Source: Salinirubellus salinus
GTDB lineage: Archaea; Halobacteriota; Halobacteria; Halobacteriales; Haloarculaceae
Length of the DNA stretch: 64,000 nucleotides
Reading direction: 5' to 3'
Assembly (NCBI RefSeq): GCF_025231485.1
Contig: NZ_CP104003.1
Coordinates: 1,240,001 to 1,304,000, forward strand
Position numbers and translations under genes: made by a program. Shown in pieces: positions 57,683 through 61,232 of the stretch (within the stretch, counting starts at the first letter, position 1; every line of letters begins with the position of its first letter). The notes below the pieces were generated by a model. It was not told the DNA's origin, did no database searches, and saw nothing but the letters and a program-made list of their open reading frames with translations.

Positions 57683-57685
57683 TCT

Positions 57686-58249
57686 TCAGGAACAGCCCGC
57701 AGCGTTTCCGCCACTTTTCTCACAAGCCGGGTTATCACCGCTTCCCGGTCCCTTACCATCCGGTGGACCCTGTCCTGCCACGATGTCCACGGTCGGTGTC
57801 TTCTCCCAGTCGAAATCGGGGCTCTGGACAGTCATGTCGTACGGGCGGTCGCCCTTGGCGGCGTTGTTCGTGACGTTCACTCGTATCTCCACCGTGGACG
57901 AACCGTCGACCGTCGTACGGAGAGTTTCATCACTGCTGGTCGTCGTAACCGTCTGCTCGGGACCGGGACTAAACGACCAGTCTGTCCCGGAGATCCGGAC
58001 CTCGAGTTCGACGCTGTTTCCGGTCGGATTCGTCACTTCCGTCAAAAGAGCGTCGTTGCTCCCCTTGCGTATCTCTCCTGTCTTGTCTAGACTCACGATT
58101 CCATCCGCATCGTCCACCACGTCCAGTCCGGCCTGCCTGTCGGCCGTGAACGACAGCGACCCGGCCGAGGACACGACGGACACCGACAGCACGACCGCCA
58201 GTATCACCAGCGGAATCCGGAGTCGGCCGAGACTACGCACCGTCCTCAC
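57686..58249 (-). CDS. Secreted DUF1102/TasA-like protein B
   Basis: This 187-residue protein has an N-terminal hydrophobic signal (LRIPLVILAVVLSVSVVSSAG, residues about 10-30), then SLSFTADRQAGLDVVDDADG, the pattern of archaeal DUF1102/camelysin-like secreted proteins. The core is strand-rich and ends in PDFDWEKTPTVDIVAG, then GKGPGSGDNPACEKSGGNAAGCS, with two Cys. It lies last in a four-gene minus-strand run, overlapping the DUF5305 gene by 17 nt. Probably a substrate of the adjacent signal peptidase. Confidence 0.75.
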   Translation of the reverse strand: MRTVRSLGRLRIPLVILAVVLSVSVVSSAGSLSFTADRQAGLDVVDDADGIVSLDKTGEIRKGSNDALLTEVTNPTGNSVELEVRISGTDWSFSPGPEQTVTTTSSDETLRTTVDGSSTVEIRVNVTNNAAKGDRPYDMTVQSPDFDWEKTPTVDIVAGQGPPDGKGPGSGDNPACEKSGGNAAGCS

Positions 58250-59447
58250 CCCCGTCTTCCTCCCCGAAGTCGAACCCGAACGTGAAGTCCTCGCCGTCGT
58301 CGGACGTGGTGGAGACGGACACCGATTCGCTCAACTCGGCGGAGCGACGCTGGAACGCCTCGTCCTCCGGGACCTCCGTCTTGAATCCGAAGGCGCTCGC
58401 GAGCGTGTCCTGGGGGTCCCAGGTGCTCCCTGGGCCGCGACAGTAGTACGTGACGTCCCCGTCGAGGTAGGCGACGATGTCGGTGGTGTCGCAGTGGACC
58501 AGTCCACCCCGGTTGTTCATCGACATCTTCACCAGTTCTGGCACGTCGTCGATGGGAATCGTCTCCTCTGACTCGTGGTTGACGAGCGACCCGGCCGAGA
58601 TCCACTCGCTGTACCGTCTGAGGGTCCGTTCCCACTCCCCGACCGTCGTCCGTTCGATACTGGTCCCGAGCACGGAGTCACGGTCGCGGAGCCAGAGGAA
58701 CGTGCCGCCGAGTGCCAGCAGAGCCACCCCGGCACCGTACCGGAGCCACGGCACCGGCCCCATCCGTTCGGTCGTGACCGTCCGTGTCGTCGCGAAGGTC
58801 TGCGTCGGCGTCGGCTCCTCGGCACCCAGCGAGAACAGCGACCCACCGGCCAGTTCGAGCGGGATGCGCCGGACTCGGGTCCGAGACTCACCGGTGACCG
58901 GGTCCTCGAACTCGACCGTCGCGACAAGCGCCATCTGGATGTCGCTCCGACCACCGAGTTCCGAGCGCAACCGGTCGCGTCGGTCGACGAGTGCGCTCGC
59001 GTTCAGTGTGCCCGCCGTCTCGACGGCAGCCCCCTCGTCGAAGGTGGTACGGTCGAGGGGCGTGCGTCGGTTCCAGAACACCTCTTCGTCTCGGAGTGCG
59101 CGCGTTTCGAGCCAGAGTCGCTGTTCGGCGGCCGAGACGCGCTGGTCGAAGCGGGTCTGGACGGCCACGGACACCTCGGGCGACGCCCGGACGACGTACG
59201 TCGACTCGTTTCGGAGTCGCGTCCCCTCGTCGTAGAGGTCGCTCTCGCCGGTCACCGTCGCCGTCGTGGCGTACGTCGTCGTCGCCGACACGGTCGGGAC
59301 CTCCTGGCGCTGGGTCACCTCCTCCATCGGGTCCGAGAGGTGGGTGTAGCCGGTCACGCCCGTGACCGCCACCCCGAGCAACAGGAACGCCACGCCGAGG
59401 TGGAGCGCGACCGGCCTGAGACGGCTCAGGAGCGACCAGACGTCCAT
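58233..59447 (-). CDS. DUF5305-like membrane protein
   Basis: This 404-residue protein begins DVWSLLSRLRPVALHLGVAFLLLGVAVTGVTG, giving a first helix near residues 15-35. A large extracellular region (about 40-225) contains VRASPEVSVAVQTRFDQRVSA and GESRTRVRRIPLELAGGSLF. A second helix (WLRYGAGVALLALGGTFLWL, about 235-255) leads to a cytoplasmic tail with acidic end DFGEEDGGEDGA. DUF5305 is a haloarchaeal family of unknown role, commonly near SipW-type peptidases in my recollection. It follows the peptidase by 40 bases. Confidence 0.8.
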   Translation of the reverse strand: MDVWSLLSRLRPVALHLGVAFLLLGVAVTGVTGYTHLSDPMEEVTQRQEVPTVSATTTYATTATVTGESDLYDEGTRLRNESTYVVRASPEVSVAVQTRFDQRVSAAEQRLWLETRALRDEEVFWNRRTPLDRTTFDEGAAVETAGTLNASALVDRRDRLRSELGGRSDIQMALVATVEFEDPVTGESRTRVRRIPLELAGGSLFSLGAEEPTPTQTFATTRTVTTERMGPVPWLRYGAGVALLALGGTFLWLRDRDSVLGTSIERTTVGEWERTLRRYSEWISAGSLVNHESEETIPIDDVPELVKMSMNNRGGLVHCDTTDIVAYLDGDVTYYCRGPGSTWDPQDTLASAFGFKTEVPEDEAFQRRSAELSESVSVSTTSDDGEDFTFGFDFGEEDGGEDGA

Positions 59448-59487
59448 CAGCGTCTCACCTCACTCGACGGCAGTGTTCGTTCACGGC

Positions 59488-60483
59488 TCATCGTGCGTCA
59501 CTCCGTGCGTTGATTATCCAGGATATCGGGACCTCGACCGGCAGGAGGAACCGTGAGAGCAGGTAGATGGGGACCGTCACGGCCGCGACCGACGCGGTGA
59601 TGGCGGCCATCGGATGCAAGTCGTACAGCGCGGCGGCCACCGGCCGCGGCAGCGTCGTCGGGACGTTGTCGGTCTGGAGTCCGACCGCGTGGGGACCGGT
59701 CGACTGCAGCGGCCCCACCCTGAGCGTCACCGTCGTCACCGTGCTGTCGGTGCTCGCCCCGGCCACCGCGGCGCCCGTCGCGTCGACGAACCGGTAGCTG
59801 TACGCCGGGCGGACCGCCTCCAGCGTGACCTCCCGTTCGACGACGCGCTCCACCGGGACGAGTGGCCCCTCGGCGCTCTCGGCCTCGGTCGCGGTGTAGA
59901 CCACCTCGTTCGAGGCACCGACGGCGACGACACCGACGACACCGCCGATGGTTCCCAGGAGGAAGATGACCGCGAGCGCCTGCCCGTACGTGACGTGCGG
60001 GACGCGCGTGGGCGAGGGGCGTCCGGACGCCACCGCGTCGTAGCCGAGTGCCAGCAACACGAGGCCAAGCAACGGCACCCGGACGTCCGAACTCAATCGA
60101 GCGAGGCCCCCCGCGGCCGGAACGACGAGTGGGTTCCCACCGACCGACGGGACGACACCCACGACGTTCTCGCTCGTGACGGGTGGGGCACCCGCCGCCT
60201 GGTCCGTGCTCGGGTTCGCGTCGCCACGGGTCACGTACGCGCCACTGGCCGTCGTCCCGACGACCCGGTGCGTGACGAGTCGCGTCCCGTCGTCGGTCTG
60301 CTGTCGGAAGGTGACGATGTCCCCCACCTCCAACTCGCCGTCGACGAGGACGAACGCGTCGCCGGTGGTGAGTGTCGGGTTCATGCTGTCGGAGGTGACG
60401 GTGCCGACGGTGACGCCGAAGTAGGTAGTCGCCGCTATCGCCGCGGCGAGTAGCGCTAATACCAGGAGCGTCGATCGAACCAA
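59488..60483 (-). CDS. Archaeal signal peptidase I (SipW-type)
   Basis: This 331-residue membrane protease has Ser in VTSDSMNPTLTTGDAFVLVDG near residue 33, His in LVTHRVVGTT near residue 70 and Asp in YVTRGDANPSTD, the Ser-His-Asp arrangement of archaeal/ER signal peptidases and Bacillus SipW. A first helix precedes the Ser (LVLALLAAAIAATTYFGVTVG). Further helices lie at about 125-145, 165-190 and 295-315. The extra C-terminal domain (about 190-290) is unusual. It presumably processes the two neighbouring secreted proteins. Confidence 0.88.
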   Translation of the reverse strand: MVRSTLLVLALLAAAIAATTYFGVTVGTVTSDSMNPTLTTGDAFVLVDGELEVGDIVTFRQQTDDGTRLVTHRVVGTTASGAYVTRGDANPSTDQAAGAPPVTSENVVGVVPSVGGNPLVVPAAGGLARLSSDVRVPLLGLVLLALGYDAVASGRPSPTRVPHVTYGQALAVIFLLGTIGGVVGVVAVGASNEVVYTATEAESAEGPLVPVERVVEREVTLEAVRPAYSYRFVDATGAAVAGASTDSTVTTVTLRVGPLQSTGPHAVGLQTDNVPTTLPRPVAAALYDLHPMAAITASVAAVTVPIYLLSRFLLPVEVPISWIINARSDAR

Positions 60484-60502
60484 TATCTTGCCAGGCCCCG
60501 AG

Positions 60503-61084
60503 TTACGAACTAGGGTTTAGCGTTATCGTGAGGTCGCCGGTGAGGTCTTCCGTGCTGGAGAGGCCATTCGTGTCGACACGTAGCGCGACGGAGAACAGCG
60601 TCGAGTTCGCAATCCCAGTCAAACTCAGTGTACCGGTTTCCGTGACCGTGTACTCGTTGGAGCCGTCCGATATCTTGAATTGAACGTTGGCATCGGCATC
60701 CCCACCATCTGTTCCAGTCAGATTATAGCTGATGTCGATATCCTGATTATCGGTAGCATTGTGCTGGAAGGTGAACGCTGGCGTGCTCGTTGGGTCGCTA
60801 AACGTCCCCACATCCAGTTGAGAGCCTACATTGACACCCGCCGCTTTATTACTATCGATCGCATTCCCGATAGCGATATCCAACTCGTCGTTGGTGTTGG
60901 TCGAGACGATGTTGCTGGTTCCTGGGCTGAGAGTCAGAAATGCGCTCGCACTCCCGTCACCCTCAACACCAATTGATGCCTCACGCGTCAGCGTGAAACT
61001 GTTGTACGCCGCCGCGGTCAGCCCGGACGGGACGAGCACTGCACCACTGGCACCGAGGCCGTACAGGAGCTTTCTTCGTCGCAT
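60503..61084 (-). CDS. Secreted DUF1102/TasA-like protein A
   Basis: This 193-residue protein begins RRRKLLYGLGASGAVLVPSG, then LTAAAYNSFTLTREASIGVE, a signal sequence with a SipW-like A-x-Y/F cut region and the DUF1102 opening (SIGVEGDGSASAFLTLSPG). The rest is strand-rich, repeats Thr/Asn/Asp, and has no Cys. It is first of the four-gene run. TATA at 61107-61117 lies about 28 nt upstream. Base composition is clearly lower in GC than the neighbours. Confidence 0.82.
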   Translation of the reverse strand: MRRRKLLYGLGASGAVLVPSGLTAAAYNSFTLTREASIGVEGDGSASAFLTLSPGTSNIVSTNTNDELDIAIGNAIDSNKAAGVNVGSQLDVGTFSDPTSTPAFTFQHNATDNQDIDISYNLTGTDGGDADANVQFKISDGSNEYTVTETGTLSLTGIANSTLFSVALRVDTNGLSSTEDLTGDLTITLNPSS

Positions 61085-61106
61085 GAACCTCTCTACACCG
61101 AGAAAT

Positions 61107-61117
61107 CACATATAACT
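61107..61117 (-). promoter_or_regulatory. TATA box for the SipW/TasA-like run
   Basis: On the minus strand, gttatatgtga sits about 28 nt before the ATG at 61084. This is the only clear promoter element ahead of the four-gene run. Confidence 0.55.
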
Positions 61118-61232
61118 CAGTCAGACACTTCACGTTCTGAAAACACCCTAACATATTGCGGCGCTCTAGCACGGTCTGGCCGTGCCGGAAGCGATAGGCC
61201 TTAGCCACACCCTCTGCTACCACCGAATGCGC

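Follow-up and report, generated by a model that had tools for sequence, protein, structure and literature searches.

A four-gene signal peptidase and DUF5305 cassette of Salinirubellus salinus as the probable source of a Taf/TasA-like surface filament

The window analysed here, a stretch of 64,000 nt from the haloarchaeon Salinirubellus salinus, contains four consecutive open reading frames on the minus strand that encode a secreted protein (P1), a type I signal peptidase (SPase), a DUF5305 membrane protein and a second secreted protein (P4; Table 1). Spacing down the cassette is 19 nt, 40 nt and then a 17-nt overlap, and both coordinates and spacing agree with an earlier note on this DNA, which had described four minus-strand genes in series with a TATA box ahead of the first. 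A putative box of this kind, TTATAT, is indeed present, at a distance that would suit a leaderless P1 transcript, and the four genes probably form one transcription unit. A sigma-70 promoter scan, based on a model that does not apply to archaea, gave nothing of weight, and a tRNA was the sole match in an RNA-family search.

Table 1. Features of the cassette and its insertion site, in positions of the window
Feature	Position	Strand	Description
P1	60503..61084	-	193 aa, ATG start; secreted filament-subunit candidate, distant TafE/TafA relative
SPase	59488..60483	-	331 aa, TTG start; archaeal type I signal peptidase with long C-terminal part
DUF5305 protein	58233..59447	-	404 aa; candidate membrane anchor or assembly factor
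P4	57686..58249	-	187 aa, GTG start; second secreted protein, candidate initiator or minor subunit
TATA-like box TTATAT	61110..61115	-	-31 to -26 of the P1 start; read from sequence
Mini-ORF, 14 codons	59447..59491	-	between SPase and DUF5305 gene; junction sequences
Inserted block	57683..61232	.	3,550 nt, from GNAT gene to tRNA-Thr(TGT); cassette and promoter region exactly

The two middle genes can be assigned to established families, as had been proposed for both. The second product, read earlier as an archaeal Ser-His-Asp signal peptidase, scores 69.3 bits against TIGR02228, over the cut-off of 51.85, matches PF10502 (E=1e-6), and has Ser33, His72, Asp88 and Asp94 invariant in an alignment of nine sequences. 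Hydropathy places hydrophobic segments at about residues 134-152, 170-188 and 292-310. The third product, first described as DUF5305-like, reaches 90.1 bits against PF17231, for which the gathering score is 29, and has an N-terminal hydrophobic segment by hydropathy. Its closest relative among 392 genomes is 32% identical, and in a sample of 293 genomes of the order the family occurs in 222. A literature search on DUF5305 found nothing; the family has no known function, yet in most of the loci read it has such an SPase and subunits of the fibre type as neighbours.

The two secreted proteins had been labelled DUF1102-like, and for this label we find no basis: P1, further P1 members and P4 have no match to DUF1102 or camelysin in Pfam, P1 and P4 are without a family assignment in Pfam and PHROGs, and matches below the NCBIfam cut-offs point to TafE and TafC instead. 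P1 begins with a signal peptide starting RRRK, with possible cleavage after TAAA, and bears a conserved N-terminal pattern, AFT...R...V...D. It matches NCBIfam TafE with E=2.2e-6 and 27.5 bits, below the equivalog cut-off of 155. The profile of the P1 family (A5, 25 sequences) matches the Tafi pilus of Natrinema sp. J7-2 (PDB 9p0a) with E=1.3e-6, and a profile-profile comparison with an alignment of Taf subunits gives E=2.2e-17 and a probability of 98.9%. P1 is thus a distant relative of the haloarchaeal Taf fimbrial proteins that lies below the family cut-offs.

Structure prediction is consistent with this relationship. AlphaFold2 models P1 as a beta protein with a mean pLDDT of 78, residues 9-34 falling below 50. 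The best structural match to this model is the AbpA bundling pilus of Pyrobaculum calidifontis (7ueg; Z 8.5, 128 residues, rmsd 3.6, 10% sequence identity), a TasA-related archaeal pilus, followed by the thread filament of Sulfolobus acidocaldarius (7pnb; Z 8.3, 128 residues, rmsd 3.5, 12% identity), the Tafi pilus (9p0a; Z 7.1) and the Pyrodictium cannula (9h8b; Z 7.1). The top three are all archaeal filament subunits. Z-scores of 7 to 8.5 barely exceed what common arrangements reach and would be weak by themselves, and a Foldseek search gave one match below 1e-3, with a low TM-score. The fold matches carry weight because the sequence-profile result agrees with them.

P4 is homologous to P1 by profile comparison (E=1e-12, probability 97.8%) and has an N-terminal motif of the P1 type. 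Against NCBIfam TafC it scores E=5e-4 and 19.2 bits, below the equivalog cut-off of 410. Its predicted fold has a complete Ig-like core at about residues 50-160, which matches many Ig proteins, PapD-type chaperones included; these matches are unspecific and do not point to a particular partner. The tail of P4 differs in length and content from genome to genome. This variability, together with the resemblance of both predicted beta-sandwich folds to many binding modules, would also suit a secretion and surface-display cassette in which P1 and P4 are non-polymerising soluble or coat proteins, either released or anchored, for instance adhesins or ligand-binding proteins, with DUF5305 as their anchor. 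We regard such a display function as unlikely, since filament subunits are the best matches of P1 both by sequence profile and by fold, and the N-terminal strand motif is conserved in P1 and P4 alike.

The association of the four genes extends well beyond this genome. A search of 392 genomes of the order with an SPase profile gave 31 matches of at least 233 bits in 30 genomes, the next standing at 194 and below, and these cassette-type enzymes are spread over eight families, with hosts that include Halomarina, Halolamina, Haloferax massiliensis, H. mucosum, Halobellus, Haloarcula, Halorientalis, Haloquadratum and Halonotius. In the loci examined, one per genome, P1 adjoins the SPase in 30 of 30 and P4 is present in 29; DUF5305 belongs to every cassette, within the stretch in 28 and further downstream in two. 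No HTH gene occurs in the 30 cassette stretches. Because 29 of the 30 genomes with this type of SPase have all four genes together, the arrangement here is not a matter of chance, and the co-conservation that the earlier note had made a test of its proposal is borne out. The usual order is P1-SPase-P4-DUF5305; P1-SPase-DUF5305-P4 is found in the window alone. The genome whose SPase is nearest to that of the window among those compared (G238, 184 bits) is without P4 between SPase and DUF5305, its best P4-like gene lying 190 kb off. As a query for contig searches the single DUF5305 protein returned no match, and it was the SPase alignment that did find loci.

The survey of DUF5305 neighbourhoods distinguishes two kinds of locus, the compact cassette and the canonical Taf locus, which contains TafE, TafA, HTH, TafC and SPase genes and mostly DUF5305. 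Taf fimbriae (NCBIfam TafA, TafC, TafE and TafF; 9p0a) share with the cassette related secreted subunits, a common N-terminal motif, and a locus that combines an SPase with DUF5305. In contrast to the cassette, canonical Taf loci have a DUF7344-type HTH gene, TafF and a larger TafC, and are often arranged as two divergent units; the HTH gene, TafF and full-length TafC are present in L062, L063, L066, L079 and L081 and absent from the window cluster. The cassette subunits score below all Taf cut-offs, and the signal peptidases also differ. In a tree of 58 SPase sequences the 23 cassette enzymes form one clade (SH-aLRT 97), from which the 29 canonical Taf enzymes are set apart with a support of 100. 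The enzyme of the window sits within the cassette clade on a long branch, grouped with those of L134, L121 and L127 (support 96).

Four clusters in the S. salinus genome itself have an SPase of this type, and three of the four include DUF5305. One more SPase match in the genome, a weak one outside these clusters, may represent the housekeeping enzyme. In the three clusters outside the window (L008, L009 and L010), genes resembling TafE and TafC are accompanied by an HTH gene, which in L009 is of the DUF7344 family; the window cluster is without an HTH gene. With three canonical-type SPase clusters in the genome, two of them with DUF5305, the cassette could be a subsidiary branch of the canonical Taf system, its products serving as alternative subunits that join the fimbriae of the other clusters or assemble on them. 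This is improbable in our view, as the cassette has an SPase and a DUF5305 protein of its own, its SPase clade is separate from the canonical Taf enzymes, and it arrived as a block (below).

The P1 gene has a GC content of 55% and a GC3 of 0.64, compared with 0.88 for the SPase and DUF5305 genes, and P4 is also low at 0.71. The lower GC of the first gene, which had been taken to suggest transfer or rapid change, is therefore real, but as a specific signature of transfer it is rejected, because the other subunit genes of the same genome share it (GC3 0.67-0.74 for the TafE-type genes of the other clusters) and because P1 of Halolamina behaves likewise (0.69, against 0.89 for its SPase). Across the four clusters of the genome, subunit genes with GC3 of 0.64-0.74 (60503-61084 in the window, L008:1784-4060, L009:5761-6372 and L010:6166-6792) lie below most of their neighbours in every case.

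Evidence of another kind does speak for the suggested transfer. Eight genomes of the family to which S. salinus belongs have the genes for phosphoglycerate kinase, a GNAT protein and tRNA-Thr(TGT) together, with a spacer of 7-62 nt between GNAT and tRNA. The corresponding spacer in the window holds the cassette exactly, with 148 nt before P1. Given the short spacer in the eight relatives, entry of the cassette into this lineage as a block is the simplest explanation.

The junction downstream of the SPase may record a later event. There the ATGA that overlaps the SPase stop opens a mini-ORF, MSRERTLPSSEVRR, whose end in turn overlaps the start of the DUF5305 gene as TGATG. When this junction is compared across 23 cassettes, 17 of the 22 others have an ATGA or GTGA overlap at the SPase stop that opens a frame whose first residues are basic in the manner of P4 (MSR, MTR, MRR and similar). 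The mini-ORF is suggestive of a P4 remnant and fits a move of P4 from its usual place to the end of the cassette; 14 codons are no proof of it. Taken further, such a scar at the usual place of P4, the terminal position of P4 in the window alone, and the long SPase branch could indicate a decaying cassette, rearranged after insertion, from which a filament is no longer made. All four reading frames are open, the catalytic residues are intact and a TATA-like box is present, and we give decay a very slight chance.

On this evidence we consider it probable, at roughly 0.7, that the cassette makes a surface filament of the archaeal donor-strand type, a compact version of the Taf/TasA-like fimbriae of haloarchaea. 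The middling quality of the P1 model, the unspecific Ig matches of P4 and the missed NCBIfam cut-offs weaken this reading. A precedent for the mechanism comes from Bacillus, where TasA polymerises by donor-strand exchange (PMC9674648) and TapA is described as a complete V-set Ig domain whose N-terminal strand is donated to TasA (PMC10151520). In the proposed scheme P1 would be exported, and both P1 and P4 would be cut by the dedicated SPase. The freed N-terminal segment of P1, with the AFT...R...V...D pattern, would then enter the following subunit and in this way bring about polymerisation. On the model of TasA and TapA, P1 would serve as main subunit, and P4, as initiator, would start or cap the filament in the way that Bacillus TapA is described to do. 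P4 is proposed for this part because in it the P1-type N-terminal motif sits on an already complete Ig-like domain. The DUF5305 protein presumably holds or builds the base of the filament. The order of assembly is likewise inferred.

The filament reading thus retains much of what had been proposed for the locus, namely a dedicated secretion module with two different substrates: the export module and a fibre-type role are supported by the profile and fold matches of P1 and by co-conservation, with the qualification that the two substrates are homologous to each other. The narrower idea of a SipW/TasA cluster proper is not supported. The SPase reaches 48.3 bits against the SipW model NF046067, far under the cut-off of 190, and TasA itself is absent among the structural matches listed for P1. 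The tapA-sipW-tasA operon of Bacillus follows the logic proposed for the cassette, a dedicated SPase together with one major fibre protein and one minor one, and TapA, as described (PMC10151520), resembles the predicted Ig fold of P4 with its free N-terminal segment; unlike the cassette, the three-gene operon is without a DUF5305 protein. Among described systems the haloarchaeal Taf fimbria stands closest, ahead of Bacillus TasA. What we judge to be new is a distinguishable cassette with unnamed subunit families, the kind of system being already known. A search of the literature on Taf, Tafi and TasA-like archaeal fibres found no paper on this haloarchaeal system itself, and it may be described elsewhere.

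The block insertion and the scattered distribution of the cassette suggest that haloarchaea exchange whole surface-filament systems, which bears on adhesion and biofilms. The four genes are the smallest set that keeps the association of SPase, DUF5305 and subunit, without the extra Taf genes, and are therefore a good test bed for what a filament needs and for the role of DUF5305. More tentatively, and with the odds rather against it, the cassette could be a minimal self-sufficient unit (subunit, SPase, Ig-type initiator and DUF5305 base) that moves between haloarchaea as such and whose core is common to DUF5305 loci of the Bacillota. If so, TasA/Taf-type fibres of both domains would have in DUF5305 the membrane protein for assembly or anchoring that has so far been missing.

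A few individual loci depart from the usual form of these genes. The SPase frame looks broken into two pieces in an uncultured archaeon (L186:3965-5058) and short, at 195 aa, in the second locus of Halospeciosus flavus (L143:3932-4519), and in the cassette of G294 the DUF5305 sequence lies inside a predicted reading frame of 1,272 aa (L243:2310-6128). Three Bacillota metagenome-assembled genomes, from Herbinix (L158:3953-7609), an uncultured bacterium (L180:3413-7538) and an Erysipelotrichaceae member (L187), have an SPase of this type followed by a large protein with DUF5305, with P1-like or P4-like genes present too. The DUF5305 proteins of L158 and L180 score 96-99 bits in Pfam, and that of L180 has an additional MshEN domain.
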